64,000 nucleotides of DNA from positions 4,402,001-4,466,000 of the forward strand of contig NZ_CP029255.1 of assembly GCF_003122385.1 (NCBI RefSeq), written 5' to 3'. The position numbers and the translations under genes are program-made. The stretch comes from Flavobacterium crocinum (GTDB lineage Bacteria > Bacteroidota > Bacteroidia > Flavobacteriales > Flavobacteriaceae). Shown here piece by piece: positions 41,281 through 64,000 of the stretch. The notes below the pieces were generated by a model. It saw nothing but the letters and a program-made list of their open reading frames with translations. It was not told the origin of the DNA and did not search any database. The first letter of the stretch is position 1, and each line of letters begins with the position of its first letter.

Positions 41281-41314
41281 AATGAACTTTTATCTACTCC
41301 TTGGAGCAAATCAG

Positions 41315-41554: not shown

Positions 41555-41591
41555 CTGTTTTACTTAATTGTTTATCATTTTTTAAATCAAC

Positions 41592-41608: not shown

Positions 41609-41680
41609 CTAAAATTCCAAACCTGTAGAGTGGCATCTTGTTTCCCATTCGTGCCCTGAGGCTAACAAAATGGGCTCTAG

Positions 41681-43196
<1,516 letters not shown>

Positions 43197-43637: not shown

Positions 43638-43857
43638 GCTTTTTTTCTATGTTTTTTTGTCTTTTTTTTGATCTTTTCCCTAACTTACTGGTAACGGCTT
43701 GTTTACAGATTGAATTTTTTTAACAACAAGTAAGATTTTTCTCCATTAATCTATTAATTTGATATTTATTGCTCTTTTCGGATTTCTGTTTTTATGGAAT
43801 TTTCAAACTTTGAAGCCGCTTTTTAAAGATAAACCTTCTTATGAAAACAGCTCCACT

Positions 43858-43937
43858 AGCCCCGATAGAAGCGGAAATCCTTTTTGTGGCGGGGTTCGCC
43901 ACAAAAAGATTGCAGCGGATAGCGGGAAATTGCTCCT
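43858..43937. repeat. REP-like element (GATAGAAGCGG / CAGCGGATAGCGGGA)
   Basis: On the plus strand, CCCCGATAGAAGCGGAAATCC is followed by a TTTTTGTGGC/GCCACAAAAA hairpin, then GATTGCAGCGGATAGCGGGA. I recall this type as widespread in Flavobacterium intergenic DNA; it may also stop transcription. Confidence -1.
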
Positions 43938-45051: not shown

Positions 45052-46650
45052 TTAATTATAACCTGGATTTTGTTGCAGATTACTATTGGTATCTCTTACA
45101 GACTGTGGTATTGGCAAAATACTTCTGAAATCACCATTTGGCGTATGAGTAAACCAAGATTTTTTAGTAAATACTCCAAATCGTATCAAATCTTGTTTTC
45201 TATGTGCTTCTCCAATAAATTCCCAAGCAAGTTCATCTAAGAAACCTCCATACTGAATATCAGCGCCTCCTTCTAATTTGGTAATAACACCAGAATCATA
45301 AGTTCCATATTTATAAACACTACCTCCATTCAGTTTAGCTCCTGAAACTGTTGCCTTAGCCGGATTGGTATTTTTAAAATCTCTTTGTCTGATTTGTGAA
45401 ACAATTACTGCTGCTCCTTCAGCATCTCCAGCTCTTAATAGACATTCCGCTTTAATCATCAGTGCATCTGTGTATCTGTAAAAAGGCACATCATTACTTG
45501 TTTGCCCAATATCTCCTGTTCCTATTTCATATTTAACCAATCTGTAACCTTCATTAGGCTCACAGCCATTTACGTTTGTCATGAAATTAATATATTCAAA
45601 TTGTTTACCATCAACCATTATTGGTTCTCCTTTGCTTGTGTATTGCTTACCTCCCAACCAGCAGTCTTTTAATCTTTGATCATCTGGATCGTAAGTATCA
45701 ATAAATTGAGGAATTCCTCCAGTTCCGTTCCAAGGCCCACCGCTCATTTCAAATGTTGCCTGACTAGGAGCTGCTAAAGATTTAAATGGCCAATAACTTC
45801 CTCCGGTTTTAACCTGATCAAAAGGAATAGATAATATTTCTTCCGGAGATCCCTCGTTTTTAATTTTGAAGTTGTCTGCGTAATTACTTGCCAAACTAAA
45901 TTTTCCACTGTTTATAATATCATTAACCTCAGCCAAAGCTTCATTATATTTAGGAGTACCAATATATACTTGTGCATTTAAATACAATTTTGCCAAAGTC
46001 ATTTTAACCGCCCATTTTGTAACTTTTCCATAAGTTTCCGTGTTGTTTTCTTCACTTAAAAATGGTAGTGCTGTTTTTAATTCGCTTTCAACAAAATCAT
46101 ACACCTCTTTTCCTGTATTCTGAACTGGAAGATAACCTGGAGGATTGATAAAAGAAGTTACTATAGGAACGTTTCTAAAATTATCTAACAGTAAATAGTA
46201 ATAAATCGCTCTTAATGCTTTTAGTTCCTGAATTACTTTATCTTTATTTGGGATACCTTCAATTTGTTCTATTTGATATATTGCTCTATTCACACTATTT
46301 ACTCCTGTATACATATAACTCCAGTTACCCTCTGCATGAGGAAGCGTAGATCCCCAAGTATGCAGATGCATTGTGATGTAATAATCTCCCCAGCCAATAC
46401 CGTTTCGTTGCGGTGTTACCAAACAGTCTGATGATTCTTCATACAAATCATGTAAACCATCCCAGTTCCAAAAAATTCCTCTAAACGAAGTATAAGCTGG
46501 CGCAATAATACTCGTCAAATCTTCTTCAGTAAGCGTTGTGCCTTCAGCAGTTATTTTATCATAAACTGTCTCATCCAAATTTGTGCACCCAGTTCCTAAA
46601 AGAAGTAAACCGGAAATAAGGATCTTATATACTATATTTTGATTTTTCAT
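45052..46650 (-). CDS. SusD/RagB-family lipoprotein (second pair)
   Basis: This 532-aa protein has a lipobox ending at Cys22 (GLLLLGTGC) followed by TNLDE. SusD features are the ALRAIYYYLLLDNFRNVPIV segment (about 170) and the C-terminal block RYTDALMIKAECLLRAGDAEGA, LAWEFIGEAHRKQDLIRFG and PIPQSVRDTN..QNPGYN. It forms the binding lid over the SusC-like transporter upstream (12-nt gap). No CAZyme is in this unit. The neighbouring genes are peptidases and hydroxyproline enzymes, so peptides are a possible ligand, as for RagB of Porphyromonas gingivalis (inference). Confidence -1.
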   Translation of the reverse strand: MKNQNIVYKILISGLLLLGTGCTNLDETVYDKITAEGTTLTEEDLTSIIAPAYTSFRGIFWNWDGLHDLYEESSDCLVTPQRNGIGWGDYYITMHLHTWGSTLPHAEGNWSYMYTGVNSVNRAIYQIEQIEGIPNKDKVIQELKALRAIYYYLLLDNFRNVPIVTSFINPPGYLPVQNTGKEVYDFVESELKTALPFLSEENNTETYGKVTKWAVKMTLAKLYLNAQVYIGTPKYNEALAEVNDIINSGKFSLASNYADNFKIKNEGSPEEILSIPFDQVKTGGSYWPFKSLAAPSQATFEMSGGPWNGTGGIPQFIDTYDPDDQRLKDCWLGGKQYTSKGEPIMVDGKQFEYINFMTNVNGCEPNEGYRLVKYEIGTGDIGQTSNDVPFYRYTDALMIKAECLLRAGDAEGAAVIVSQIRQRDFKNTNPAKATVSGAKLNGGSVYKYGTYDSGVITKLEGGADIQYGGFLDELAWEFIGEAHRKQDLIRFGVFTKKSWFTHTPNGDFRSILPIPQSVRDTNSNLQQNPGYN

Positions 46651-46662
46651 CTTTATTTTTTT

Positions 46663-49650
46663 TTAAAAAGTTACATTTAAACCTAAAGTAAAACCTCTTG
46701 TAGTTGGATATTTATCTCTGTTATCCAATCCTTGCGCCAATACATTGTCTCTAGCAATCTCTGGATCCAAACCTTTGTATTTTGTAATCACTGCCAAATT
46801 ATTTGCCGAAGCATATACACGCATTGCACTGATAAACTTATAAGGCTTAACGTCGAAATTATAAGTTAGTGTAACATTATCAAGCTTTGCATAATCTCCT
46901 TGTTCTAAATAATAACTAACATATGTTTGATTATAATTTAAAACTGCTTTATCATATACTTTATCAAAAGCTGAAGACAACATATTATAATTGATTGTAG
47001 GATTTTCGTAGAACATACGCTGAGAGTTCAATATCTGAAAATCGAAAGCTCCAGTCATTACGATACTTAAATCAAATTTTTTATAGGTAAATGTATTCGT
47101 CCAACCAGCAACGTAATTTGGTATTCCGTTACCTAAATACTGTTTGTTAGCATCGTTATATAAATCCGGTGTCAATGTTTTTCTGGTTCCATCAGCAGTT
47201 TCAATAATCCATTTTCCGTCTGTAGTAATGTCAACCGATTTTAATCCCCAATAATTACCTATGGACTGCCCAACTTCTAATCTATGTGTTGTAAAAGAGA
47301 TTGGGTCACCAGTATCCCCAGTATTAATAAAGTTTCTATCAATACTATATAAATCATTTGAAAGACTTGTCAACTTATTCTTATTATGTGAAAAAGTCAT
47401 AGAAGAATTCCAAATAAAATTTTCTGTTTTAACCGGAATTGTATTTAGCAGAATCTCAAAACCTTTGTTTTCCATTTTTCCAACATTTGCAGTAATGCTA
47501 GAATATAAATATGGAGGTGTTGGAACAGCATAATCCCACAACATATCACTTGTTTTTTTGTTGTAAACATCAAAACTTCCACTAATTCTGTTATTAAAAA
47601 ATCCGAAATCAACACCAACATTCACCTCTGCTGTTTTTTCCCAGCGTAAATCCGGATTAGGATTACTTGCGGGTACTAATCCTTTTACCCATTTTCCGTC
47701 ATTAAAAAAATAACCATCATAATTATATAAAGTCTGAGACAGATACGATTCTCCAGGAATTACCCCTGTAACACCATAACCTCCTCTTAATTTTAAATTG
47801 TTTATAGCAGCCACATCTCTAAGAAAAGACTCTTTATTGATACTCCAACCAGCAGAAACAGCCGGGAAATTACCCCATTTATGATTTTGTCCAAACTTAG
47901 AAGAACCTTCTCTTCTAATACTAAGCAAAAGATCATATTTATTATTAAAGTTGTAATTAGCTCTTCCAAAGAAACCAATCAATTTATCATCATTTTTATA
48001 ACTTGCCATAGATGCTTTTCCATCAGAAAGTGCATTACCTGCTCCTAAATTATTATAAGAAAAAGCGTCTGTTGGGAAATCAAAATTAGATGCTGAGAAA
48101 CCTTCATTGACAGTATATTGATAGCTGTAACCTCCCAGTAAAGTAAATTCGTGTTTATCTAATTTCTTATTATACTTAGAAGTAAGCTCAACGAAGTCTC
48201 TGTCTGTCTGGCCAGTACTTCTTGAAGCAACTCCATTTCGACCGTTTATTGTATTTGAATAGTGTTTTTTCGTTTCAGAATATCCATCCAAACCTGAATT
48301 TTTATTTTTGGCAAGTAAAGCACTTACATCCCATCCCGGTAATAAATCTAAAGTAATATTAGCCGTAAACCTCTGCCAGGTACTTTGTCTGTCTTGTTTT
48401 GTTTCATTTAAGATTGCAACCGGATTGTAATACTGAAATCTATTGGTTTCTGCATATGTGCCATCAGCATTATAAACTGGAGCAGTAGGGTTTCTAATCA
48501 TTGCCTGTCTGTAAGCATAACCAGCTGTACCAGGTGAAATTCCCATTTTTTGCGTTCCATTCAATAAGTTTAAATTAATTTTTAATTTATCATTAAACAT
48601 CGTATGATTAACATCAAATGAGAATCTATATTCTTTGTTAAACGTACCATTAAAAACTCCTGTTTGATCTACATAATTTAAGTTCACTACATAGTTTGTT
48701 TTAGCAGTTCCACCTTTAAGGTCTAAATTATGATTTTGAGCAAAACTGCTTCTTGAAATTTCATCCAGCCAATTTGTAGTTGCTCCTTCATCTGTAAAAG
48801 GCATTTTAGTACCCTGAGCCAATAAACTTCTTAACGCACCTGCATCCAAAAAGTCTGCTTTTTTAGCAAAATTAGATACAGTCGTAAAAGCAGAATATGT
48901 TAGGGTTGGCTGTATCTCTTTACTAACTGTTTTTGTTGTAATTAAAATTACTCCATTTGCTCCCCTTGTTCCATAAATCGCTGCAGCAGACGCATCTTTT
49001 AATACCTCGATAGAAGCAATTTCATTTGGAGAAACCGTATCGATTCCACCAGGTACACCGTTGATCAAGACCAAAGGAGCCGATCCTCCTTTTAAAGAAG
49101 ATACCCCACGCAATGAAATATTGGGTGCAGCAGAAGGATCTCCGGAACCATTGCTAATGGTTAGACCTGCAACTTTTCCTTTAATAAGGTCCGAAGCATC
49201 TCTAATTGCTCCTCGCGTAAAATCTTTTTCTTTGATACTCGCAATAGCACTTGTAACTCTCGATTTCTTTTGAGTACCGTATCCGACTACCACAACATCG
49301 GCTAATTGCTCCGCATTTTCGATTAGCACTACATCTACTTTATTACCTGAAACTGTAACTTCCTGGGATGCAAATCCGACATAAGAAACAACCAATTTAG
49401 AATTTGGTTTTTGAAGTGTCATCTGGAAATTACCGTCAAAATCTGACAATACACCATTATTAGATGTATTTTTTTCCATAATTGAGACTCCTGAAATCGG
49501 AACTCCATGAATATCTTTTATGGAACCTTGAATCTTTGTTTGTGCAACGGAAGTTAAAAATGTCAAAAGAAAAAAGATGGTAAATCCCAGTTTTTTCTTT
49601 AACAGTTTATTTCCAAAATTTTGCAATACTGAATGGTTAGTAAAATTCAT
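46663..49650 (-). CDS. SusC/RagA-family TonB-dependent transporter (second pair)
   Basis: This 995-aa protein has a signal peptide (FTIFFLLTFLTSVAQ), a carboxypeptidase-D-like domain (IKDIHGVPISGVSIMEKNTSNNGVLSDFDGNF), the TonB box ADVVVVGYGTQKK (about 120), plug motifs (ISLRGVSSLKGGSAPLVLINGVPGG, VLKDASAAAIYGTRGANGVILITTK) and a barrel ending LNVTF. It begins its own unit: a terminator (49978-50021) lies between it and the M61 gene, and about 330 bp of upstream DNA is available for a promoter. No HTCS, anti-sigma/sigma pair or CAZyme accompanies it. RagA-type importers of oligopeptides are the closest functional precedent, given the neighbours; a glycan ligand cannot be excluded. Confidence -1.
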   Translation of the reverse strand: MNFTNHSVLQNFGNKLLKKKLGFTIFFLLTFLTSVAQTKIQGSIKDIHGVPISGVSIMEKNTSNNGVLSDFDGNFQMTLQKPNSKLVVSYVGFASQEVTVSGNKVDVVLIENAEQLADVVVVGYGTQKKSRVTSAIASIKEKDFTRGAIRDASDLIKGKVAGLTISNGSGDPSAAPNISLRGVSSLKGGSAPLVLINGVPGGIDTVSPNEIASIEVLKDASAAAIYGTRGANGVILITTKTVSKEIQPTLTYSAFTTVSNFAKKADFLDAGALRSLLAQGTKMPFTDEGATTNWLDEISRSSFAQNHNLDLKGGTAKTNYVVNLNYVDQTGVFNGTFNKEYRFSFDVNHTMFNDKLKINLNLLNGTQKMGISPGTAGYAYRQAMIRNPTAPVYNADGTYAETNRFQYYNPVAILNETKQDRQSTWQRFTANITLDLLPGWDVSALLAKNKNSGLDGYSETKKHYSNTINGRNGVASRSTGQTDRDFVELTSKYNKKLDKHEFTLLGGYSYQYTVNEGFSASNFDFPTDAFSYNNLGAGNALSDGKASMASYKNDDKLIGFFGRANYNFNNKYDLLLSIRREGSSKFGQNHKWGNFPAVSAGWSINKESFLRDVAAINNLKLRGGYGVTGVIPGESYLSQTLYNYDGYFFNDGKWVKGLVPASNPNPDLRWEKTAEVNVGVDFGFFNNRISGSFDVYNKKTSDMLWDYAVPTPPYLYSSITANVGKMENKGFEILLNTIPVKTENFIWNSSMTFSHNKNKLTSLSNDLYSIDRNFINTGDTGDPISFTTHRLEVGQSIGNYWGLKSVDITTDGKWIIETADGTRKTLTPDLYNDANKQYLGNGIPNYVAGWTNTFTYKKFDLSIVMTGAFDFQILNSQRMFYENPTINYNMLSSAFDKVYDKAVLNYNQTYVSYYLEQGDYAKLDNVTLTYNFDVKPYKFISAMRVYASANNLAVITKYKGLDPEIARDNVLAQGLDNRDKYPTTRGFTLGLNVTF

Positions 49651-50040
49651 AGCTTTTTGGTTTTTGGTTTTTGTTTAGTTAAAAAATGCTTCTTTAATAC
49701 ACTTAATATTAATTGTGTATTTTAAACACTTGTAAAGTTAAATGATAACCAATCTCACGAAAGCCAACAATTTATCCGAAAGCTATATTATATTATCCTC
49801 TTATTATCTTTTTTAAGTCAAAACTGATTAAAAAAAATGGTATTCAAAAAAAATATGTTAATTCCATACAACAAAAAGCATGTAATTTCAAAATACATTA
49901 AAAAAACATCAATATTAAATACTCAAAATAATCATTTAATAAGATTCATTCAAAAAATCGAGATATTGACAAAAACTAAAAGCCCATCACAATTAATTAA
50001 ACTAATTTATGATGGGCTTTTAAATATTCTAATTCTAGCT
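49651..50040. other. 390-bp intergenic region upstream of the second SusC
   Basis: Very AT-rich, with the M61 terminator at its far end. A TAACTTTA sequence, one mismatch from the -7 consensus, lies about 85 bp upstream of SusC. I see no gene and no convincing operator. Confidence -1.
49978..50021 (-). terminator. Intrinsic terminator after the M61 peptidase gene
   Basis: AAAAGCCCATCA and TGATGGGCTTTT form a perfect 12-bp stem with a 20-nt loop, followed by a T-rich tail on the minus strand. It marks the end of the hydroxyproline/peptidase operon. Confidence -1.
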
Positions 50041-51621: not shown

Positions 51622-51658
51622 ACAATTAATAAAGTTTAGAGATGTTCATTAAGTGGTA

Positions 51659-51749
51659 TTTTTTCGCCACGAATTACACGGATTTACACGAATTATATTT
51701 TTTAAAACACAACGATTTGTGCTAATTTGTGTAATTTGTGGCAAAAAAA
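51659..51749. repeat. Long palindromic repeat (GCCACGAATTACACG type)
   Basis: TTTTTTCGCCACGAATTACAC and its imperfect complement GTGTAATTTGTGGCAAAAAA flank about 50 bp, with further internal pairing (GATTTACACGAATT / GATTTGTGCTAATT). I recall this type of repeat as dispersed in Flavobacterium genomes. It fills the gap between the permease and M61 genes and could act as a terminator or RNA stabiliser. Confidence -1.
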
Positions 51750-51769
51750 CTTTTAAACAATAGTTAGAT

Positions 51770-53182
51770 CTAAGATTTGTCTTTACTCACGAAATAATAA
51801 TAAATCGGAATTCCTAAAAGCACAATTGCCAATCCCGGTATCGAGGAATTGTATTTGTAAATCAAAAGCATAATACAAATAGTCACAGCTGCAATGATAT
51901 AAATAAAAGGTAAAAACGGATAACCAATAGCTTTATAAGGACGCTCTAAATCTGGTTTTGTTTTACGAAGTCTAAAAATTCCAGCAATGGTTAAAATGTA
52001 AAATATTAAAACGACAAATATTACATACTCTAAAAGTTCATTGTATTTGCCGCTTAAACAAAGTGCCGATGCCCAAATACATTGAATCCATAGTGCTTTT
52101 TCCGGCACTCCATTTTTATTTAAATGCCCTAATTGTTTAAAAAACAATCCATCTTTAGCCATCGTATGATAAACGCGGGCTCCGGAAAGTATTAATCCGT
52201 TATTACATCCGAAAGTCGAAATCATCAATAATATGGCGATGATATAAGTTCCTGAATTTCCAAAAATATGCTGCGATGCTACCACACCTACACGATCGTT
52301 TTCAGCATAGGCAATTTCATTTATAGAAAGAACCGACAAATACATCATATTGGTGGCAATATAAATGATGGTTACAATTAAAGTTCCCAAGAAAAGACTT
52401 CTTCCGATATTTTTAGAAGGATTTTTTATTTCGCCAGCAATAAAAGTGACATTATTCCAGGAATCACTGCTGAACAAACTTCCGACAAGACTTGCTGCTA
52501 AAGCTCCCATAACCGCAAATCCTGAATAAGGAACCAACGTATTTCCATCTAATTTATTAATAGAAAAACCTGTGCTCCAATTTGCTTTCCAAATATCAGC
52601 TTTTGCAGCAAGACTAAAACCAAAAATGATAAGTCCAAATAATGCAATTAATTTTACGAGCGTAAAAATAGTCTGAATCATTTTTCCTTCTTTTACGCCT
52701 CTTGTATTCACATAGGTAAGAAAAACAACCAGAATTATTGATGTTAATTGTGCTGCTGATATTTGTAAAAAACTGAAATCTATGATAATATTTTTTTCGC
52801 TTAACGAAGGAAAAACATAAGCCGCAAATTTGCTAAAAGCAACCCCAACCGCAGCGATAGAACCAGTTTGTATCACTGCAAAAAAACTCCAGCCGTACAA
52901 AAAACCGGTAAGTGAATTGAAAGCTTCTTTTAAATAAACATATTGTCCTCCAGCCTTCGGAAACATACTGCTCAACTCTCCATAACTAAGTGCTGCGGCA
53001 ATGGTTAAAAAGCCCGTAAATAACCAAATCAGTAATAAAGCACATGCCGATCCAACATTACGAACGATATCTGCACTAACAATGAAAATTCCTGATCCAA
53101 TCATAGAACCCGCAACAATCATGGTAGCATCTAATAATCCTAATGATCTTTTGAAATTATTTTTTTCTGTTGTTGATTCCAT
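51770..53182 (-). CDS. APC-family amino-acid permease
   Basis: This 470-aa protein with about 12 membrane segments carries the APC signatures MIVAGSMIGSGIFIVSADI (TM1), GGQYVYLKEAF, the conserved GEIKNPSKNIGRSLF loop, and RLRKTKPDLERPYKAIGYPF near TM11. It resembles LAT-type amino-acid exchangers or symporters. It would carry proline, hydroxyproline or other amino acids across the inner membrane after periplasmic peptide cleavage. It sits between the D-amino-acid oxidase-like gene (59-nt gap) and M61. Family assignment is firm; the substrate follows only from context. Confidence -1.
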   Translation of the reverse strand: MESTTEKNNFKRSLGLLDATMIVAGSMIGSGIFIVSADIVRNVGSACALLLIWLFTGFLTIAAALSYGELSSMFPKAGGQYVYLKEAFNSLTGFLYGWSFFAVIQTGSIAAVGVAFSKFAAYVFPSLSEKNIIIDFSFLQISAAQLTSIILVVFLTYVNTRGVKEGKMIQTIFTLVKLIALFGLIIFGFSLAAKADIWKANWSTGFSINKLDGNTLVPYSGFAVMGALAASLVGSLFSSDSWNNVTFIAGEIKNPSKNIGRSLFLGTLIVTIIYIATNMMYLSVLSINEIAYAENDRVGVVASQHIFGNSGTYIIAILLMISTFGCNNGLILSGARVYHTMAKDGLFFKQLGHLNKNGVPEKALWIQCIWASALCLSGKYNELLEYVIFVVLIFYILTIAGIFRLRKTKPDLERPYKAIGYPFLPFIYIIAAVTICIMLLIYKYNSSIPGLAIVLLGIPIYYYFVSKDKS

Positions 53183-53241
53183 ATTTCCTTGTTGTTTTGT
53201 TTTTTTGTTTTTGAATGAAAATCTGTTTTTAGAAGCTGTAT

Positions 53242-54492
53242 CTACCCAAACCTTTCTACTTCAAAAGCATCAATATTCATACTTGTAGCTTCTCTGTTTA
53301 CAATTTCTGAAACCAATTTTCCTGTGCCCGGGCCAAGACTTAATCCCATCATAGAATGTCCGGTTGCAACCACCACATTATTGTATTTTTTTATTCTTCC
53401 AATATAAGGCAGTCCATCTGCAGAACATGGTCGGTAACCATACCAAATATCTTCTTCTGATGGTTTTTGAATATCAAATTCCGGCAGGAAATCTTTAACT
53501 GCATTTAATATTCCGTTGATACGATGATATTGTGGCTTTTCAGTTGTAGGTACTACCTCCATTGTACCTCCAAATCTAATTTTGTTGCCATCCATAGGCG
53601 CTATAGCAACTCTGCCTTCAGCCAGAATAATGGGATGATTTACTTTATAATCAGAATTTTCTAGTGTTATCGAATATCCTCTTCCGGGCATTAGTGATAC
53701 TTTGGCATTTACTAAAGCCGCAATTTCTCTTGTCCACGATCCCGTTGCAATGACAATTTCATCCGCTTCATAAGACTGTTTATCAGTAATTACTTTTTTA
53801 ACAACATTATTCTCTTTTTCAAATGAAACCACAGTTTCTCCCGATTGAAACTGAACACCATTTGCTACTAAATGCTCCTTTAAAACTTTCATTAATTTAT
53901 TTGGATAAACATGTGCATCACAATTGAACTGCACAGCTCCTATTGCATTAATTTTGGTTTGAGGTTCTAATGCCTGCAGCGCTTCATAATCCAGTAAGTT
54001 TACATCTAAACCTAATTCTCTTCCTTTAGAAACAGTATGTTCTGCGTGTTTAGCAACTGCTTCGGTTTGAAAAACTTCCAGCATTCCTTTGTGTTCGTAA
54101 GCAAATTCAAAGCCTGGGATTTTTTTCCACTCTAAAAACTCGTTCTGACTCAATAAGGATATATCTCGAAGCGGAATAGCCGATTTGGCAACATTTGTTT
54201 CGGTAGCACTTTTTACAAAATTTAATCCCCAATCCAATAATGCTTTATTAAAAGAAGGCTTTACATAAAACGGACTTTTAGAATTAAACATCCATTTGAA
54301 TCCCTGCCAGACAATTCCAGGTGCTGCTAATGGTATAAAGTGACTCGGACAGACATATCCTAAATTGCCATAAGAACAATTGTTTTCAAAATTATCTTTG
54401 TCTATCACAGTAACTTTACAACCACTTTGCTGTAAATAAAATGCCGAACTCAATCCTATAATTCCTCCACCTATTACTACTACCTGTTTCAT
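53242..54492 (-). CDS. FAD-dependent D-amino-acid oxidoreductase (D-hydroxyproline dehydrogenase candidate)
   Basis: This 416-aa DAO-family flavoprotein has a Rossmann motif at the very N-terminus (VVVIGGGIIGLSSAFYL, with the acidic residue ID that binds FAD ribose), a second FAD segment (ADEIVIATGSWTREIAAL) and the C-terminal YGYRPCSADGLPYIGRI, VVATGHSMMGLSLGPGTG. It resembles DadA-type dehydrogenases. In this operon its substrate should be cis-4-hydroxy-D-proline, giving 1-pyrroline-4-hydroxy-2-carboxylate: the epimerase that makes the substrate and the DHDPS-family enzyme that uses the product are encoded upstream. That assignment is from pathway context. It is 19 nt after the DUF885 gene. 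Confidence -1.
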   Translation of the reverse strand: MKQVVVIGGGIIGLSSAFYLQQSGCKVTVIDKDNFENNCSYGNLGYVCPSHFIPLAAPGIVWQGFKWMFNSKSPFYVKPSFNKALLDWGLNFVKSATETNVAKSAIPLRDISLLSQNEFLEWKKIPGFEFAYEHKGMLEVFQTEAVAKHAEHTVSKGRELGLDVNLLDYEALQALEPQTKINAIGAVQFNCDAHVYPNKLMKVLKEHLVANGVQFQSGETVVSFEKENNVVKKVITDKQSYEADEIVIATGSWTREIAALVNAKVSLMPGRGYSITLENSDYKVNHPIILAEGRVAIAPMDGNKIRFGGTMEVVPTTEKPQYHRINGILNAVKDFLPEFDIQKPSEEDIWYGYRPCSADGLPYIGRIKKYNNVVVATGHSMMGLSLGPGTGKLVSEIVNREATSMNIDAFEVERFG

Positions 54493-54511
54493 AAATGTGC
54501 TTGTATCTTAA

Positions 54512-56296: not shown

Positions 56297-56334
56297 TTGT
56301 GGTTTTTTGGTTTAATTAAAATAAGTTCCGTTTA

Positions 56335-58632
56335 TTATTGATTTAATTCATTAGTGTTTCGGCTTGGAGGATCAACTCCTAATAAATGTTTTACAAAAAA
56401 ATCTCGTTTTATCTGTCTTCCATAAGGCCCGCCATCACTGTGACCAACGCCTGGCAAAGGCAGAAACTCAAAAGTTTTTCCCGCTTTTATTAAGGCATCG
56501 GCAACACGATAAGTAGATTCTGGCGGTACATTTTCATCGGCTTCTCCAATGACTAACAATAAATCTCCTGTAAGTTTACTGGCATTGGTCACATTAGATT
56601 GTTCTTTATAATGTTCTCCAACCGGATATCCCATCCATTGCTCATTCCACCATTGTTTATCGACCCTATTGTCGTGGCAACCGCAGGCGGCAACTCCTGC
56701 TTTGTAGAATTCCGGATGAAATAATAAACCGCCTAAAGCATTTTGCCCTCCGGCAGAAGTACCATATAATCCCACTCTTGAATCGTCTACATAAGGATAT
56801 TTTTTAGCCAATGCTTTTATCCATAAAATACGATCCTCAAAACCGGCATCTTTTAAATTTTTCCAGCAGACATCATGAAAAGCTTTTGATCTATTGGCAG
56901 TTCCCATTCCATCAATTTGTACGACTATAAATCCTAACTGCGCCAGACTCTGCATCTCAGTTGTGTAGCGATCCATAAAATTTTTAGGCACAAAAGAATC
57001 CTGCGGGCCTGCATAAATACTTTCAATTACAGGATATTTTTTATTAGGATCAAAATCTGCAGGACGGCATATTATTCCCCAAATATCTGTAACTCCGTCT
57101 CTCCCTTTCGCATGAAAAGGTTCCGGTAAAGACATTCCTGTAGCGAGATAAGCTGTGGCATCTGATTTTTCAAGATCCATTATTTTTTTTCCATCAGAAG
57201 TACGATGAAGTTCAATAATCGTAGCCACATTCGGTTCTGAGTAAGAATCGACATAATATTGTTTGTTTTTCGAAAAAGAAACCAGATGATTTCCTTTTGA
57301 AGGAGTAAGATTAATAAGTTTCTTTCCATCAAAACCTATTCGATAATGATGAATATAATATGGATCTTCGTTGGAATTCATTCCGCTTGCCGAAAACCAA
57401 ATTTCTCTTTTCTTTTCGTCAATACTGTCTACACTTCGAACAACCCATTCTCCTTTTGTAATTTGTTTTTTCTCCTTACCTGTTATCGCATCAATTAAAT
57501 ACAAATGTCTCCAACCGTCTTTTTCAGAAGACATTACAATTTCGTTGCTTTCTTTACCATAATGCGTAAACAATCTGGATTCGTAAATAAAAGTATTGGT
57601 CTTTTCATCGATTACAGAACGGGTTTCGGCAGTTTGGGTATTTACTTCGAAAATTCTAAATCTTTGATGGCCTCTTTCTACTTTTTCAAACGTAAAGTAA
57701 TTTGGATTGTCTTTTCTCCAATGCAATTCTGGCGCATCAAAAAAGTCAATTATTGGAGCATTTACTTTTGTTGTTTTTTGATTTTCGATATGAAACAAAT
57801 ACATTTCATAAGTAGTGAAAGGATCTCCCGGCTGTTTATAAGGCTGGGAATGTAATTCGCCTCGAGTAGTATTGGCTACAGAAGTTAAAACATAATGAAC
57901 GGGCAAATCGGTAAATGGCGTAATATGATAACCTACCGCATATTTACTATCTGGTGACCAGGCTAAGGAGCCGTATGGTTTTTCTTTTGTGCCGTCTTTT
58001 GTGAATTGAATTTCATTTCCTCCAGCGATTGGCTTTATAAATACATTATACTCTTTTATAAAAGCCAGCCATTTTTTATTGGGAGAAATACTGTCTGTCT
58101 GAAAAGAATTCCATCTTTGCCATTGCCGATTTAGACTGGGATATTTTGTTTTGTCTTTAGACAGGGAATTTATTTTTTGAATGCTATAATCTGAAAGCTT
58201 TACCTGATAATAGTTTTTATCATATTTTAAAGCTATAGAACTTGTTTTGGCATCATAATTTAAACTATCAATAACCAGACTTTTTTGAGGAGTTTTAATT
58301 AATGTAACTGAACTTAGGGCATTTCTTAATTTTGGTTCGTCAAATAAAATATTTTTAGTTCCTTTTCCGGCATCAACCAAAATGTATTCGATGATGCTGT
58401 CTTTTAGAACATTAGAATACCAAAATGATTTTCCGTCGCTTTGCCACTGTGCTCTTATACTGGTCTTGAAAACGGTATTTTTAACTGCTTTATCCAATAA
58501 CAAAGCTTTTTTATATCGTTCTAAAATCTCGGTTTTAGAAGGCTGATAGGGTATCATTTCTTTAATCTGCGAGTATAGGTTACAGTTCAGAAATGATACA
58601 AAGAAGGCAAAAAGGAGTAAATTCTTTTTCAT
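56335..58632 (-). CDS. S9 family dipeptidyl-peptidase IV-like serine peptidase
   Basis: This 765-aa protein has a signal peptide (LLLFAFFVSFLNCNLYSQ). An N-terminal DPPIV-type propeller (about 60-510) comes before the alpha/beta-hydrolase domain, with Ser in GLYGTSAGGQNALGG (about 626), Asp in IGEADENVPPESTYRV and His in LPGVGHSDGGPYG. All three triad members are present. The S9B/S9C group releases X-Pro dipeptides or cleaves after Pro-like residues. This fits a diet of proline- and hydroxyproline-rich peptides in an operon that catabolises hydroxyproline. It follows the epimerase gene after 166 nt, so a second promoter could lie between them. Confidence -1.
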   Translation of the reverse strand: MKKNLLLFAFFVSFLNCNLYSQIKEMIPYQPSKTEILERYKKALLLDKAVKNTVFKTSIRAQWQSDGKSFWYSNVLKDSIIEYILVDAGKGTKNILFDEPKLRNALSSVTLIKTPQKSLVIDSLNYDAKTSSIALKYDKNYYQVKLSDYSIQKINSLSKDKTKYPSLNRQWQRWNSFQTDSISPNKKWLAFIKEYNVFIKPIAGGNEIQFTKDGTKEKPYGSLAWSPDSKYAVGYHITPFTDLPVHYVLTSVANTTRGELHSQPYKQPGDPFTTYEMYLFHIENQKTTKVNAPIIDFFDAPELHWRKDNPNYFTFEKVERGHQRFRIFEVNTQTAETRSVIDEKTNTFIYESRLFTHYGKESNEIVMSSEKDGWRHLYLIDAITGKEKKQITKGEWVVRSVDSIDEKKREIWFSASGMNSNEDPYYIHHYRIGFDGKKLINLTPSKGNHLVSFSKNKQYYVDSYSEPNVATIIELHRTSDGKKIMDLEKSDATAYLATGMSLPEPFHAKGRDGVTDIWGIICRPADFDPNKKYPVIESIYAGPQDSFVPKNFMDRYTTEMQSLAQLGFIVVQIDGMGTANRSKAFHDVCWKNLKDAGFEDRILWIKALAKKYPYVDDSRVGLYGTSAGGQNALGGLLFHPEFYKAGVAACGCHDNRVDKQWWNEQWMGYPVGEHYKEQSNVTNASKLTGDLLLVIGEADENVPPESTYRVADALIKAGKTFEFLPLPGVGHSDGGPYGRQIKRDFFVKHLLGVDPPSRNTNELNQ

Positions 58633-58798
58633 AGTTATTGGAATACGAGGAAACTTCCCTATTTAATTATAGAAACAAAAATAAGTTTGCCAATAGAACT
58701 TTAAACTGCCAAAATCAGGTTTTAAAGTCCTATTCACGATACTGAAAATAAGCTGTAAAAACTTAAAAATAAAGAACGGTTAATTCAGGAATATTGAA

Positions 58799-59809
58799 TT
58801 ACAAAACCTGAAATCCGTGTGCATAAGGATCGTCTTCCTCATCAATGATTATGGTATTGTAACCATACACTTTTGCCCATCCTTGTATACTGGGAACGAT
58901 GGCTTTAATATCGTCAATTGCAGTTTCTTCTTCTATTCTGCCAACGAACTTACTTCCGATATAACTTTCGTGTATAAATTCGTCTCCTTTTTTAAGCAGT
59001 CCTTTTGCATGTAATTGCGCCATTCTTGCTGATGTTCCTGTACCGCAAGGCGAACGGTCTATCGCTTTGTCTCCATAAAAAACAGCATTTCTACCTGATG
59101 AAGTCGGATCTAAAGGTGTGCCCGTCCATAACATATGACTCACATCTCTAATAGTATCATTTTCAGGATGAATAAATAAGTTTGGGTATTTTTCGTTAAT
59201 TCGTGCTCGCACTACCTGACTGTATTGCACAATTTTACTGGCGGTAAAATCCTGAATTCCGGAAAAGTTTTGCTGCGGATCTACAATGGCATAATAATTT
59301 CCGCCATAGGCAACATCAAAAGTTAATTCGCCTAATTCCGGGCATTCTACAGTTAAATTTTCGGCTGCCAAATATGATTTAACATTCGTCAATTTAACCC
59401 ATTCCACTTTTTTACCAACTTGCTTGTATTCAATTTTTACTAAGCCGGCAGGAGCTTCCATATTTATTTTTCCTGGAATTTTCGGACTAATTAATCCTTC
59501 TTCAATTGCAATGGTAATCGTGCCTATTGTACCGTGCCCACACATTGGCAGACAGCCTGAAGTTTCGATAAACAAAATACCAAAATCGTTATCTGGATTC
59601 GTTGGCGGAAATAAAATACTGCCGCTCATCATATCATGTCCGCGAGGTTCAAACATCAATCCTTTACGAATCCAATCGTATTGGCTTAAAAAATGCTGTC
59701 TTTTCTCGCTCATGTTGGTACCAATTAGATTTGGCCCACCGCCAGCAACTACTCTAACTGGATTACCGCAAGTATGTGCATCTACACAAAAAAAAGTTTT
59801 TCTAGCCAT
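58799..59809 (-). CDS. 4-hydroxyproline 2-epimerase (proline racemase family)
   Basis: This 336-aa proline-racemase-family protein has both catalytic cysteines: Cys90 in MCGHGTIG and Cys255 in DRSPCGTGTSAR. The second Cys separates epimerases from trans-3-hydroxyproline dehydratases, which carry Thr or Ser at one site. GGGPNLIGTNMSEKR near the N-terminus and the hydroxyproline-type loop support 4-hydroxyproline over proline. It converts trans-4-hydroxy-L-proline to cis-4-hydroxy-D-proline, in the cytoplasm. It starts 2 nt after the dehydrogenase gene, so they are coupled. This enzyme is the key evidence that the operon serves hydroxyproline. Confidence -1.
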   Translation of the reverse strand: MARKTFFCVDAHTCGNPVRVVAGGGPNLIGTNMSEKRQHFLSQYDWIRKGLMFEPRGHDMMSGSILFPPTNPDNDFGILFIETSGCLPMCGHGTIGTITIAIEEGLISPKIPGKINMEAPAGLVKIEYKQVGKKVEWVKLTNVKSYLAAENLTVECPELGELTFDVAYGGNYYAIVDPQQNFSGIQDFTASKIVQYSQVVRARINEKYPNLFIHPENDTIRDVSHMLWTGTPLDPTSSGRNAVFYGDKAIDRSPCGTGTSARMAQLHAKGLLKKGDEFIHESYIGSKFVGRIEEETAIDDIKAIVPSIQGWAKVYGYNTIIIDEEDDPYAHGFQVL

Positions 59810-59811
59810 AT

Positions 59812-61395
59812 TTAAATTGAATCTCTTGTTTGAACATTATTAACTAATCTTGAAATTCCAAGCGGATTTTCATTTTGAAGTGCCTCTGGAAGTTTGTTAT
59901 TCGGCCAATTCTGATAACTAAAAGGTCTAACCCATCTTTTAATGGAACCAATTCCAACTGCTGTAAACCTGGAATCTGATGAGGAAGGATAAGGTCCGCC
60001 ATGCACCATCGACGGACATACCTCTACTCCTGTTGGTAATCCGTTAAAGATTATTCTTCCGACACGATTACCCAAAGCATCCACTACTTCTTCATAGTTT
60101 TCAATTTCATTTTCTTCTGCCAAAATACTGCCCGTAAGCTGTCCTTCTAATTTTTCAATAATCGCAACCAGTTCAATTTCGTCTTCACATTGTACTAAAA
60201 TTGAAAAAGGCCCGAAAACCTCTCTATGCAAAACTGGATTTTCTAAAAAGATTTTGCCCGAAACCGTCAGTATTTTTTGTGAAGCGTAATTAGGATTATC
60301 TGTCTTAGCATATTCTGCTACGACTTCAATTCCGTCTTGCGAACTTAACAGTTCATTATTGGATTGATAATTTTTATAAATCGACGGATTTAACATACAA
60401 CTTGGCGAAATCTTTAAAATCTCAACGGCAAGCTGTTCGGTAAACGTTTTTAAAGCATCACTTTTGATTCCGAGCATCAAACCTGGATTAGTGCAGAACT
60501 GTCCTGCACCTAATGTTACAGAACCAGCACATGCCACTGCCCATTTTTCAGCATTTTGTTTTAAGGCTTCTGGTAATAATACAACTGGATTTATACTTCC
60601 CATTTCTGCAAAAACCGGAATTGGTTCTTCACGCTGTCCTGCTAAATCATATAAAGAACGACCGCCTTTTATACTTCCTGTAAATCCAACTGCCTTAACC
60701 AAAGGATGCTTTACCAATGTAACCCCAACTTCAATGCCGCTGCTGTTCAGATTAGAAAAAACACCTTCCGGCATATTCGTTTTTTGAGCTGCTTTAATTA
60801 CTGCCGAAGCTACCATTTCTCCAGTACCAGCATGCATGGGATGACTTTTTACGATAACCGGACATCCAGCGGCCAATGCAGATGCTGTATCGCCACCGGC
60901 AGTAGAATACGCGAATGGAAAATTACTGGATCCAAAAACGACTACAGTACCTAAAGGACGCTTCATTTTACGAAGATCAACCTTTGGCAAGGGAACTCTA
61001 TCTGGAATAGCAGTGTCAATTGCCGCTTCAACCCAAGAACCTTCTTCAACTAAATCAGCAAAAGCATTTAATTGCCCGATAGTTCTTCCTCTTTCGCCTT
61101 CAGCACGGCCTCTTGGCAAACCCGATTCCTGACAATAAACGTCTAAGAGATTATCTCCTAAAGCCAATATTTCATCCGCAATTGTTCTTAGAAATAAGGC
61201 CTTCTCTTTACCCGTAGATTTCTGAAATGTCAAAAATGCTTTGCTTGCAAGAGTTACGGCGGATTCTATTTCTTCATTACTTGCTTCAGTAAACTGCCAA
61301 AGATTCTCTGTATTTTCCTGCGGATTAAACGTTTTGAAGGTTTTATCGCCGCTGGCTGACAACTGACTCCCTATGTAATTTTTTCCAGTAATCAT
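59812..61395 (-). CDS. 2,5-dioxovalerate (2-oxoglutarate semialdehyde) dehydrogenase
   Basis: This 527-aa aldehyde dehydrogenase has Cys301 in LGAGQFCTNPGL, general-base Glu264 in PVFAEMGSINP, and nucleotide-site GFTGSIKGG. The sequence resembles alpha-ketoglutaric-semialdehyde dehydrogenases of hydroxyproline and arabinose pathways (EMGSINPVVLLPEAL, QFCTNPGL and VHGGPYPSSSDSRFTAVG are typical). It oxidises 2-oxoglutarate semialdehyde to 2-oxoglutarate, the last step of 4-hydroxyproline catabolism, which feeds the TCA cycle. It is 66 nt after the DHDPS-family gene and 2 nt before the epimerase gene. Confidence -1.
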   Translation of the reverse strand: MITGKNYIGSQLSASGDKTFKTFNPQENTENLWQFTEASNEEIESAVTLASKAFLTFQKSTGKEKALFLRTIADEILALGDNLLDVYCQESGLPRGRAEGERGRTIGQLNAFADLVEEGSWVEAAIDTAIPDRVPLPKVDLRKMKRPLGTVVVFGSSNFPFAYSTAGGDTASALAAGCPVIVKSHPMHAGTGEMVASAVIKAAQKTNMPEGVFSNLNSSGIEVGVTLVKHPLVKAVGFTGSIKGGRSLYDLAGQREEPIPVFAEMGSINPVVLLPEALKQNAEKWAVACAGSVTLGAGQFCTNPGLMLGIKSDALKTFTEQLAVEILKISPSCMLNPSIYKNYQSNNELLSSQDGIEVVAEYAKTDNPNYASQKILTVSGKIFLENPVLHREVFGPFSILVQCEDEIELVAIIEKLEGQLTGSILAEENEIENYEEVVDALGNRVGRIIFNGLPTGVEVCPSMVHGGPYPSSSDSRFTAVGIGSIKRWVRPFSYQNWPNNKLPEALQNENPLGISRLVNNVQTRDSI

Positions 61396-61461
61396 GTATT
61401 CTATAGTATTTGGTTAAGTAATTCTAAAATTGAAAAAAGTTTTTAAAAAACTTCTTTTCTA

Positions 61462-62376
61462 TTACAGGCTTTTATAGTCTGGCAGCGTTGGTCTATTTTT
61501 TAATGAATCATTAATAATAGCCAAAACTCTTTCTCTTTCAGCTCCCATAAGTGGTAACCTTGGTGCACGTACGTATTCCGTTCCTAATCCTGTTCCCACT
61601 TCCGCTAATTTAATATTTTGAACCAATTGTGCATTGATATCCAATTCTAATAAAGGCAAAAACCAACGGTAAATCGTCAACGCTTCCTGAACTTTACCAG
61701 CTTTCGCTAATTTATAAATAGCAACTGTTTCTTCCGGAAAAGCATCTACAAGACCACCAACCCATCCGTCAGCTCCCATTAGTAAACTTTCTAATCCTAA
61801 AGTATCAACTCCTGTAAGGACTTTTAATCTGCTTCCAAAACGATTAATGATTCTGGTTACATTAGAAATGTCTCTTGTAGATTCTTTAACAGCCTGAATG
61901 TTATCCAGCTTTAAAAGTTCTTCAAACATATCTAAAGTTACCTCGATCTTATAATCAACCGGATTGTTGTAGATCATAATAGGTAAAGAAGTACTTTTTG
62001 CAACTTCTGTAAAATATTCAACGGTTTCGTAATCGGTCGCTTTATAACGCATTGGAGGCAACATCATTAAACCTCTTGCTCCATTAGCTTCAGCCTTGTT
62101 TGCTGCTTCAATAGCACCGCGCGTAGTTTGTTCTGCAATATTCATTATCACAGGAACCTTTCCACCAACTATACGAACTGTTTCAAGAATAAGGTCTTGT
62201 TTTTCTTCTTCTAAAAGTGTACTGGCTTCTCCTAAAGTTCCTCCAAGAATAACACCTTCTATTCCAGCATCTAATTGATAATTAAGGTTTTTTTCAAACA
62301 TTTTAAAATCTAAAGTGTCTTCAGCTGTAAAATTTGTGGTAACAGCTGGCATTACCCCTTTCCATTGAATATTCAT
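61462..62376 (-). CDS. DHDPS/NAL-family lyase, 1-pyrroline-4-hydroxy-2-carboxylate deaminase candidate
   Basis: This 304-aa class I aldolase-fold protein has the Schiff-base Lys164 in QAVKESTRDI, the catalytic Tyr136 in PIMIYNNPVDYK, and GGTLGEAST in place of the more common GTTGE. In hydroxyproline operons a DHDPS homologue hydrolyses and deaminates 1-pyrroline-4-hydroxy-2-carboxylate to 2-oxoglutarate semialdehyde; the neighbours support that role. It would be a second lysine-pathway DHDPS only if the operon context misled. It is the first gene of the operon, transcribed away from the AraC regulator, with a TACCTTTG element 24 nt upstream. Confidence -1.
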   Translation of the reverse strand: MNIQWKGVMPAVTTNFTAEDTLDFKMFEKNLNYQLDAGIEGVILGGTLGEASTLLEEEKQDLILETVRIVGGKVPVIMNIAEQTTRGAIEAANKAEANGARGLMMLPPMRYKATDYETVEYFTEVAKSTSLPIMIYNNPVDYKIEVTLDMFEELLKLDNIQAVKESTRDISNVTRIINRFGSRLKVLTGVDTLGLESLLMGADGWVGGLVDAFPEETVAIYKLAKAGKVQEALTIYRWFLPLLELDINAQLVQNIKLAEVGTGLGTEYVRAPRLPLMGAERERVLAIINDSLKNRPTLPDYKSL

Positions 62377-62399
62377 AATTTATTTGTTTTTATTTATTT

Positions 62400-62407
62400 C
62401 AAAGGTA
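62400..62407 (-). promoter_or_regulatory. -7 element (TACCTTTG) of the hydroxyproline operon
   Basis: This is a full match to TAnnTTTG, 24 nt upstream of the first operon gene. There is no -33 TTG at 19-20 nt; instead a run of seven C (minus strand) stands there. A -7-only promoter fits control by the divergent AraC-type activator. Confidence -1.
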
Positions 62408-62559
62408 TCAAGGGGGGGTAAAAATTTTATCTAGGAATATTATCAAAAACCTATACAATATTATCTCATTTGCAAGATTTTAACAAAAACTAGATTAATT
62501 TCAATTCATCTTTTACTAATTTTCATATCTTTCCGTAAAATATAAAAAATAACCAAGTA

Positions 62560-63414
62560 ATGAAAGTTTTTCCTTTTAAAATCCCAAAGTCAAGCGAAGA
62601 GGCATTTATCTATCAAGAAGACTGCGAAACTATTTTTTATGATAAATACCATCAGCACGAAGAAATTCAAATTAGTTATATAAAGAAAGGAGAAGGCAAA
62701 ATTTTAGTCGGAGATATGATTACCGAATATCAAAAAGGCGACATTATTATATTAGGAAGCAATTTACCGCACGTTTTTAAAAGCGACATTTCTGAAAGCA
62801 GAGGAATGTCGGTCATGCTTACGGTCTTTTTTACCGAAAATGGATTCGGAAAAGATTTTTTTAATTTACCGGAATTAAATGCTGTAGAACCTTTTTTTAC
62901 AGCTATTAAAAACGGAATACAAATTAGAGATGCCAAACCATCTATTATAAGGAAGTTTAAAAAGTTTAAAGAAGCCGATAAATACGATCGTTTTATTCTT
63001 TTAATGTCTATGTTAAAAGCCTTTAGCCAGTCTGATAAAAAACATCTCTCTAATTATGTTTTCAACAAACCTTTTACAGATGCTGAAGGGAAACGGATGC
63101 AGATGGTTTTTGATTTTGTCATGACGCATTATCAAAAAAACATCACTTTAGACGAAATTGCCCAAATTGCCAACATGACCAAAAATGCTTTCTGCAAATA
63201 TTTCAAAACCCGAACTAAAAAGACTTTTTTCCAGTTTTTGATTGAAATAAGAATTGAACATGCCGCAAAACTGCTTATCAAAAACAAGGAATTATCGATT
63301 ATTGAAATTTCGGAACTAAGCGGTTTTAACAACATTTCTAATTTCAACAGAAAATTCAAAGAGATTAAAAAGAAAACCCCTTTTGAGTTTAAAAGTTCCC
63401 TTATTAAGTCTTAG
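62560..63414 (+). CDS. AraC-family transcriptional regulator with N-terminal cupin
   Basis: This 284-aa protein has an N-terminal cupin-like sensor (about 10-110, YHQHEEIQISYIKKGEGKILVGD, GDIIILGSNLPHVF) and a C-terminal double HTH (about 190-280: ITLDEIAQIANMTKNAFCKYFK; ELSIIEISELSGFNNISNFNRKFKEIKKKTPFEF). It is divergent from the hydroxyproline operon with a 183-bp shared region, so it is the likely activator of that operon, responding to hydroxyproline or an intermediate (inference). It is the only complete plus-strand gene of the window. Confidence -1.
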   Translation: MKVFPFKIPKSSEEAFIYQEDCETIFYDKYHQHEEIQISYIKKGEGKILVGDMITEYQKGDIIILGSNLPHVFKSDISESRGMSVMLTVFFTENGFGKDFFNLPELNAVEPFFTAIKNGIQIRDAKPSIIRKFKKFKEADKYDRFILLMSMLKAFSQSDKKHLSNYVFNKPFTDAEGKRMQMVFDFVMTHYQKNITLDEIAQIANMTKNAFCKYFKTRTKKTFFQFLIEIRIEHAAKLLIKNKELSIIEISELSGFNNISNFNRKFKEIKKKTPFEFKSSLIKS

Positions 63415-63577: not shown

Positions 63578-64000
63578 ATGATTAGGAACTATTTAACTCT
63601 TGTTTTTTTGTGTTTTAATTTCATTTCTTTTGCCCAAAAAACAAAACCATACACACTGGCAGACACCTTAAGAGGCAGTTTAACTCCTGAAAGACAGTGG
63701 TGGGACGTACAACGTTATGATATTACTGTGAAACCTGATTATGACACTAAAATAATAGTAGGAAGCAACACTATAACGTATAAAACACTTAAAGAAAAGA
63801 GCAATACCAAAATGCAGATTGATTTGCAGAATCCTCTGGTTATTGATAGTGTTATTCAATCTGGGAAGAAATTAAGTTTTGCAAAGGAAAACGGTGTATG
63901 GTATATTAAAACGCCTAAATCTAAAATAAAATCCACCAGCAAAGTGGTTATTTTCTTTAGCGGAAAAGTTCATGAAGCCATAAAAGCGCCTTGGGATGGA
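63578..64000 (+). CDS. M1-family aminopeptidase, N-terminal part (cut by window edge)
   Basis: The frame is open from ATG 63578 to the window edge, giving 141 residues. It has a signal peptide (LVFLCFNFISFAQ) followed by WWDVQRYDITVKPDYDTK, IVGSNTITYK and LQNPLVIDSVIQSGK, the N-terminal beta-domain of M1 (aminopeptidase N-type) peptidases. The catalytic HExxH region is beyond the edge. It is close to the hydroxyproline/peptidase locus and on the same strand as the AraC gene, with a 163-nt gap. The family call from the N-terminal domain alone is fairly confident. Confidence -1.
   Translation, partial: MIRNYLTLVFLCFNFISFAQKTKPYTLADTLRGSLTPERQWWDVQRYDITVKPDYDTKIIVGSNTITYKTLKEKSNTKMQIDLQNPLVIDSVIQSGKKLSFAKENGVWYIKTPKSKIKSTSKVVIFFSGKVHEAIKAPWDG

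Follow-up and report, generated by a model that had tools for sequence, protein, structure and literature searches.

Extensins and arabinogalactan proteins (AGPs) are found in plant and green-algal walls, and bacterial use of their hydroxyproline (Hyp)-rich cores is little described. Here we analyse a gene cluster from a 5.88-Mb single-contig Flavobacterium genome (G000:C1), in which genes for the breakdown of trans-4-Hyp, several peptidase genes and a SusC/SusD transporter pair (SusCD) lie together. The stretch analysed, of 64,000 nucleotides (positions 4402001-4466000), is called the window below. On balance, we regard the cluster as one half of a glycoprotein-utilisation locus, a variant of the polysaccharide utilisation locus (PUL), for arabinosylated Hyp-rich glycoproteins of plants or algae such as extensins and AGPs.

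The nearest SusCD glycoprotein system in the available literature is BT4240-50 of Bacteroides thetaiotaomicron, a mucin O-glycoprotein PUL, which shares with our locus SusCD, a peptidase, glycosidases, catabolism of the linkage sugar and, on our reading, a glycoprotein target (PMC11992087). It is directed at mucin and N-acetylgalactosamine and has one M60L endopeptidase, and the fate of the peptide is unclear according to its authors. Our locus, in contrast, has several peptidases, a pathway for Hyp, the glycosylated amino acid, and a sugar enzyme of glycoside hydrolase (GH) family GH146/GH127. Import and Hyp catabolism in one cluster is not new in itself: the collagen cluster of Colwellia BB5 (~21 kb) likewise holds a 4-Hyp epimerase, a D-Hyp dehydrogenase, a deaminase, an alpha-ketoglutarate semialdehyde (KGSA) dehydrogenase, peptidases and a TonB-dependent receptor (PMC7883544). 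That gammaproteobacterium possesses in addition an M9 collagenase and a secreted peptidyl-prolyl isomerase, and the available text mentions no SusC and names no glycosidase, whereas the window is distinguished by SusCD, an arabinofuranosidase and no collagenase gene among the genes scanned. A preliminary description of the window had called the coupling to Hyp catabolism little described; the Colwellia cluster, with its collagenase, receptor and Hyp genes, qualifies this claim, but it is one without SusCD.

Other systems share single components. The HypBA1, HypBA2 and HypAA enzymes of Bifidobacterium longum are beta-L-arabinofuranosidases acting on extensin Hyp-arabinosides; their cluster uses an ABC importer for beta-Ara2, and the accessible text describes no Hyp catabolism, peptidase or SusCD (PMC7263609, PMC10850190). 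RagAB of Porphyromonas gingivalis is a SusCD-family pair reported to import oligopeptides (PMC10132118, PMC11992087); the window's SusC, in contrast, scores higher with the glycan transporter 8AA4 than with RagA and has glycosidase neighbours in many relatives. For Latescibacteria, GH127 and peptidases were proposed in silico to act on extensins and AGPs, with no SusC mentioned and no comparable locus described in the text available (PMC4454575). All four steps of the bacterial trans-4-Hyp degradation pathway are present in the window by family; it departs from the standard pathway in the link to SusCD and, in many relatives, to GH146, and in a single-chain DadA-like oxidoreductase. In a literature search that left most subscription papers outside, the listings and passages covered did not describe a link between Hyp catabolism and either SusCD or GH127/146.

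Gene content and order

The genes named in the preliminary description are present where it had placed them. The Hyp genes, a permease and peptidase genes occupy the minus strand from 62376 to 50041, behind a divergent AraC-family regulator, and are followed by SusC and SusD (49650 to 45052):

63578..64000, plus strand: M1 aminopeptidase, first part (complete beyond the window, at L002:2079-3749; L and G numbers are our labels for loci and genomes)
62560..63414, plus strand: AraC-family regulator (cupin and HTH_18), divergent from the Hyp operon; Pfam HTH_18 63 bits, AraC_binding 27.2 bits
61462..62376, minus strand: protein of the dihydrodipicolinate synthase (DHDPS) family, deaminase role suggested by context; PF00701 204 bits, below every equivalog cut-off
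59812..61395, minus strand: aldehyde dehydrogenase (ALDH), likely 2-oxoglutarate semialdehyde dehydrogenase; PF00171 171.5 bits, top NCBIfam models 2,5-dioxovalerate and KGSA dehydrogenase, below cut-off
58799..59809, minus strand: 4-hydroxyproline 2-epimerase; PRK13971 591.6 bits (cut-off 376), PF05544
56335..58632, minus strand: S9 serine peptidase, signal sequence by eye, DPP4-like fold, atypical S1 pocket; PF00326 and PF00930
54512..56296, minus strand: DUF885 protein, probable metallopeptidase (HELIAGH), signal sequence by eye
53242..54492, minus strand: FAD-dependent D-amino-acid dehydrogenase-like protein (DAO), likely cis-4-hydroxy-D-proline dehydrogenase; PF01266 220 bits, PRK00711 243.5 bits (cut-off 383)
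51770..53182, minus strand: APC amino-acid permease; PF13520 200 bits
50041..51621, minus strand: M61 (glycyl aminopeptidase family) peptidase, HEYFH (HExxH at 300), signal sequence by eye; PF17899 and PF05299
49971..50023 (approximate limits), minus strand: terminator-like hairpin with T tract in the M61/SusC gap; -23.5 kcal/mol, z -5.2, equalled by 0 of 200 shuffles, not picked up by a short-loop terminator scan
46663..49650, minus strand: SusC/RagA-family TonB-dependent transporter; TIGR04056 725 bits (cut-off 368)
45052..46650, minus strand: SusD/RagB-family lipoprotein; PF07980 and PF14322
44998..45029, minus strand: terminator-like hairpin 3' of SusD, from the terminator scan; -19.7 kcal/mol, z -3.7

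Spacers of 66, 2, 166, 38, 19, 59 and 148 bp separate the eight genes that run from DHDPS to M61, in agreement with the single operon described earlier; the same does not hold for the step into SusC, where 390 bp with the strong hairpin and T tract intervene. SusC and SusD are 12 bp apart, adjacent as in SusCD-type PULs. The M1 gene, correctly reported as close by, heads a series of M1, S9 and M24 aminopeptidase P genes (L002:2079-3749, 3775-5925, 5956-7344).

The hydroxyproline pathway

The epimerase can be identified with confidence as a 4-Hyp epimerase: it exceeds the PRK13971 cut-off and stays under the NCBIfam cut-offs for proline racemase (303 vs 556 bits) and trans-3-Hyp dehydratase (274 vs 540). 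Both cysteines pointed out in the preliminary description lie within motifs, Cys90 in MCGHG (from 89) and Cys255 in SPCGTG (from 253). It is the single PF05544 match in the whole genome and shares 100% identity with the F. phragmitis epimerase and 99% with its F. quisquiliarum counterpart. The full route from trans-4-Hyp to 2-oxoglutarate that had been proposed is thereby borne out for the epimerase; the steps assigned to DAO, DHDPS and ALDH appear plausible from family and context.

We fetched 80 epimerase loci from named genomes and viewed 10 kb on each side of the epimerase, so that genes farther away are missed. Homologs of DHDPS, ALDH, epimerase and DAO occur together near an AraC homolog in most of them; no DAO homolog is within view in a few (e.g. 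L035, L064, L077). The AraC homolog is opposite in strand to the epimerase in 76 of the 80, the remaining four being short loci (L044, L049, L081, L082). Six loci (L019, L031, L060, L066, L179, L181) carry a distant DHDPS-family paralog (28-31% identical) instead, with ALDH and epimerase still similar. In a member of the same phylum but another class, a gene of the ornithine cyclodeaminase/mu-crystallin family, possibly a pyrroline-2-carboxylate reductase, lies between epimerase and ALDH (L187:7885-8826, minus strand).

Recurrent linkage of SusCD to hydroxyproline genes

The tie of SusCD to the Hyp pathway and peptidases, as originally noticed, is found again in several genera, with varying gene order. 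Full-length SusCs adjoining Hyp genes elsewhere are 47-92% identical to that of the window (a partial match in L004 reaches 97%), and the next-best paralogs in its own genome are only 37-38% identical. Among 299 Flavobacteriaceae genomes, SusC (matches at 1e-190 or better) was found at 17 places in 13 genomes. At seven of these places SusC and epimerase share a strand and are 1.5-9.2 kb apart; this proximity (7/17 within 10 kb) is more than chance, our Fisher and binomial figures ignoring relatedness among genomes. Ten of 150 Flavobacterium genomes have the SusC. In seven, 5.5-9.7 kb separate it from the epimerase; in G414, G329 and G303, which make up the rest, no epimerase was matched at 1e-60. 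Conservation of gene order within Flavobacterium had been suggested earlier as a check; the link is seen in several orders, and permease, M61 and S9 differ in presence and order among relatives. The SusC was further matched, again at 1e-190, in 16 of 296 Bacteroidota genomes, 12 of which are not Flavobacterium; six of these 12 have the epimerase, which in three cases (G453, G646, G548) lies no more than 18 kb from SusC and on the other strand.

SusCD occupies three positions relative to the Hyp genes: after M61 or the permease (window, L003-L007); upstream and convergent with AraC (e.g. L021, L036, L080); and between the oxidoreductase on one side and S9 and GH146 on the other (L132, L135, L139, with a small open reading frame (ORF) intervening in L135). 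In G143, G117 and G100 the order is DHDPS-ALDH-epimerase-DAO-SusC-SusD-S9-GH146.

A SusC tree of 70 rows was built from proteins of at least 900 aa from a fetched set of loci, with four of 16 johnsoniae-type SusCs, 29 own-genome paralog rows and none of the SusCs of the 296-genome survey. The paralogs come from loci for 30 of 53 own-genome matches, including the query itself; L105 and L111 represent opposite ends of a single gene. One clade of 34 rows (SH-aLRT 100) unites 21 Hyp-linked and 13 other SusCs and holds none of the 29 paralog rows tested; L018 and L158 apparently represent the same genome, so the 21 rows stand for at most 20 genomes. The Hyp label changes six times on the tree, compared with 18.1 times in shuffles. 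Because the Hyp-linked rows do not form one clade, the link must, judging from this tree, have been gained or lost several times.

Arabinofuranosidase genes near the locus

The preliminary description stressed that the SusCD pair has no carbohydrate-active enzyme (CAZyme) beside it. This is correct for 45-63 kb of the window, but not for the conserved locus: a GH127/GH146 gene is present there in many relatives and lies 22 kb from the epimerase in the own genome. A protein of ~1016 aa encoded 3' of S9 in relatives (the first 27 mapped loci hold 12 copies) has LamG, Big_4 and PF07944 (GH127) domains. The nearest solved relatives of the own copy, which lies outside the window, are 5opj, 8k7y (named beta1,3-L-arabinofuranoside) and 8k7x (named beta-L-arabinofuranosidase), entries that we take to be the GH146 enzymes BT0349 and Bll3HypBA1. 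It retains E746-T-C748 and C816-C817, the E-x-C and Cys-Cys sought in PF07944 proteins. According to the available text of one report, PF07944 covers both GH127 and GH146, these motifs are the Zn/nucleophile residues, and XeHypBA1 and Bll4HypBA1 are GH146 enzymes that cleave Araf-beta1-Hyp (PMC10850190).

The SusC clade (at least 40% identity) is present in 18 of the 80 named loci, all 18 of which keep the close S9 type. A PF07944-type gene is in view in 13 of these 18, compared with 6 of the 62 other loci. The five SusC-clade loci without one in view (L003-L007) form the window's sublineage, in which GH146 lies 17-22 kb from the epimerase in four of four genomes (G000, G346, G398, G408), adjoining DUF5695, GH43, GH97 and, in G000 and G398, GH42. 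In the own genome the GH146 ortholog is found beyond GH97, GH43 and GH42, and these four genes start 10-19 kb past the operon's first gene. G127 holds such a set in a single run: SusCD, AraC, DHDPS, ALDH, epimerase, DAO, permease, S9, GH146, DUF885, DUF5695, GH42, GH43 and an M24 prolidase.

Across the 299 Flavobacteriaceae genomes, LamG-GH146 occurs in 14, 13 of which have the epimerase (148/299 overall); it is within 25 kb of the epimerase in nine of the 14, and 11 of the 13 SusC-bearing genomes possess it. In G061 and G228 GH146 accompanies the Hyp genes and S9, with this SusC not matched at threshold. GH146 starts only 178-179 bp past the epimerase gene in L035 and L049 (Flagellimonas aequoris and a metagenome-assembled genome). 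In another family (G685, L183), epimerase and oxidoreductase have a co-oriented GH127-superfamily gene (419.8 bits) between them; G575 has its Hyp genes flanked by two such genes, and G522 combines GH146, DUF5695, a different SusCD and M1 with Hyp genes. Of the 33 GH-superfamily genes found with an epimerase on the same fetched stretch, 31 share its strand. Counts of gaps between GH genes and epimerase include only genes sharing one fetched stretch with the epimerase, and GH genes are cut by the stretch end in L009 (one gene), L132, L135, L138, L157 and L158. Near the own genome's GH146 gene lies a further gene (L151:5540-9220, minus strand), whose product is GHL10 glycosyl-hydrolase-like and carries PKD, Golvesin_C and type IX sorting domains.

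Away from Hyp genes, members of the SusC clade have neighbours of a similar kind. G030 and G075 hold SusCD, AraC and GH146 together (G030 also S9), with the Hyp genes elsewhere. The SusC of L137 adjoins AraA, an FGGY kinase (AraB-like), SSF, an aldose epimerase and an arabinofuranosidase, and L140 has homologs of five genes of this group. GH127-superfamily genes are neighbours at L159, L160, L170 and L142 (the L159 and L160 genomes without an epimerase match); further neighbours are an arabinofuranosidase (L141), GH28 (L131) and GH92 (L144). Because of these GH127-superfamily and arabinose-gene neighbours, the clade looks largely like a group of arabinose-glycan transporters.

A proposed route for arabinosylated glycopeptides

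For substrates, cellular location, flux and regulation we propose the following scheme. SusCD would take in Hyp-arabinosylated glycopeptides or oligosaccharides, from which a GH146-type beta-L-arabinofuranosidase together with GH43, GH42 and GH97, all present as genes, may remove the sugars. S9, DUF885, M61 and M1 peptidases would trim the peptides in the periplasm, and free Hyp could be delivered through the permease and a cytoplasmic Xaa-Pro (M24) peptidase. Hyp would then be converted to 2-oxoglutarate by the 4-Hyp epimerase and the putative FAD dehydrogenase, deaminase and semialdehyde dehydrogenase, the last three being assigned from family and context. For the window's lineage this places the sugar half 10-20 kb beyond the operon's first gene, with SusCD as a probably separate unit. 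A GH146 beside a free-Hyp epimerase seems chemically sensible: arabinose is taken off, the peptide trimmed and Hyp burned.

The S9 peptidase has the fold of DPP4 (S9B; top Foldseek match 5yp1, E 8e-47) and the Ser-Asp-His triad, with Ser626, Asp699 and His731 invariant across a 33-row alignment. The GWSxGG motif and the aromatic residues that form the proline pocket of DPP4 are absent in comparison with two bacterial DPP4 chains; the window's S9 has GTSAGG and CGCHDNR..WWNEQWMGYP instead, and CGCHDNR is kept in 32 of 32 close homologs.

A more specific version of this proposal, which we put forward tentatively, is a dedicated Hyp-arabinoside glycopeptide system: SusCD would import arabinosylated Hyp peptides, GH146 would free Hyp from Araf-beta-Hyp, and one regulon would burn both arabinose and Hyp. 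Such a PUL, built round a glycosylated residue and not a glycan alone, might have arisen more than once in Bacteroidota.

Several observations weigh against a glycoprotein-utilisation locus. No CAZyme gene is present at 45-63 kb of the window. Because the 390-bp gap contains a strong hairpin and T tract, SusCD is probably its own transcription unit there, and co-transcription with the Hyp operon unlikely. DAO, DHDPS and ALDH are of the expected families and closely spaced on the same strand, yet each scores below every equivalog cut-off. Ten of the 17 SusC places in Flavobacteriaceae are away from the epimerase, this SusC is not matched, at the threshold applied, in 138 of the 148 genomes with the epimerase, and co-occurrence of the two by itself is weak (10/13 genomes, p 0.05). 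SusC, GH146 and epimerase are all apart in G144, GH146 is far from the epimerase in G154, and the clade members L143, L145 and L161 have neighbours without a clear theme. The nearest solved relatives of GH43 are named xylanase, xylosidase or arabinofuranosidase, which is no proof of AGP specificity, and no endo-acting surface enzyme was identified among the genes considered. GH146 enzymes also attack arabinan and the beta-1,3-Ara of AGPs (PMC10850190, in its available text), and the collagen precedent in Colwellia counts here as well.

Alternative explanations

It is conceivable, if unlikely, that SusCD imports bare Hyp- or Pro-rich peptides of collagen or gelatin type in the manner of RagAB, with peptidases and Hyp catabolism finishing the job. 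The operon holds peptidases and a permease, there is no CAZyme from SusCD to AraC, and peptide import by SusCD has published precedent in RagAB and BT2263-64 (PMC10132118, PMC11992087), as has the combination of M9 collagenase, TonB receptor and Hyp catabolism (PMC7883544). A second arrangement also speaks for it, seen in 16 of the 80 loci (L058, L013, L012, L022 and 12 more, among them F. johnsoniae strain CI04 and F. hydatis). Here epimerase and DAO precede an M24 peptidase gene and a SusC/SusD-like_2 pair that differs from the window's; some of these loci add an S9 of another type (S9x) and some an M43 peptidase, and a GH127-superfamily gene is in view in none of the 16. In this arrangement SusCD may have been recruited to Hyp catabolism a second time, and bare peptides fit it, CAZyme-free as it is, better than they fit the window.

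For the window, bare peptide is the less likely substrate. Its SusC clade is repeatedly near GH127/GH146, arabinofuranosidase or arabinose-catabolism genes, and its nearest solved relative (phmmer) is 8AA4 with 393.7 bits, RagA scoring 231.3 bits, although such a ranking by sequence does not decide the substrate. 8AA4 is the SusC of a dextran utilisome (PMC7618045, available text). The RagAB-like system originally envisaged is consequently not upheld. No M9 collagenase was matched in the own genome, a search equally silent in 14 control genomes, so that absence is not shown. The food is more probably a Hyp-rich plant or algal cell-wall glycoprotein than collagen. Of the earlier suggestion of a Hyp/Pro-rich protein, the option of a plant hydroxyproline-rich glycoprotein is thus favoured; its wording "rather than glycan" is at odds with the SusC clade's repeated proximity to GH127/GH146 and arabinose genes. 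The observation itself was largely right and is partly confirmed, and its interpretation was partly right.

Alternatively, and in our estimate quite improbably, SusCD could import arabinan or another arabinose polysaccharide, in which case the Hyp operon would have been moved by reshuffling into a plant-cell-wall island and would have no functional tie to SusCD. In favour of this, the window's SusCD probably forms its own unit, the Hyp genes lie elsewhere in G030 and G075, and some clade members distant from Hyp genes adjoin AraA with a sugar kinase, an arabinofuranosidase gene or a GH28 gene. However, the SusCD-Hyp linkage is repeated in different orders, SusCD is inside the Hyp operon in three genomes, another family has a GH127-superfamily gene between epimerase and dehydrogenase, and the S9 type is retained in every one of the SusC-linked named loci.

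A pathway for another cyclic or D-amino acid, or a DHDPS/ALDH pair for the oxidative breakdown of L-arabinose, a route that likewise has 2-oxoglutarate semialdehyde as an intermediate, would suit the missing equivalog assignments of DAO, DHDPS and ALDH, but is highly improbable given the epimerase scores and the lack of an arabinose dehydrogenase or arabonate dehydratase among the Pfam-scanned operon genes (no genome-wide search was made).

Neighbouring features of the window

An rRNA operon (16S, 23S, 5S) with two tRNAs (window 38003-43194, minus strand) separates two SusCD loci, and a Flavo-1 RNA (Rfam RF01705, 80.4 bits; 43854-43933, plus strand) lies between it and the SusCD terminator. 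The other PUL (715-36973) includes a hybrid two-component system regulator (HTCS, 32777-36973), SusCD, GH127, GH97, GH43, GH88, GH28, GH2 and heparinase-like and alginate-lyase-like genes. Its GH127 (11583-13520) is a further PF07944 copy, and two large ORFs (16051-17655 and 17698-19149, minus strand) are without a Pfam match at E 0.001.

Significance

If the glycoprotein reading is true, the locus would be a gene marker for the turnover of Hyp-rich glycoproteins and a ready test case for glycopeptide uptake by SusCD. PULs would then extend from glycans to whole glycoproteins, the linkage amino acid included.

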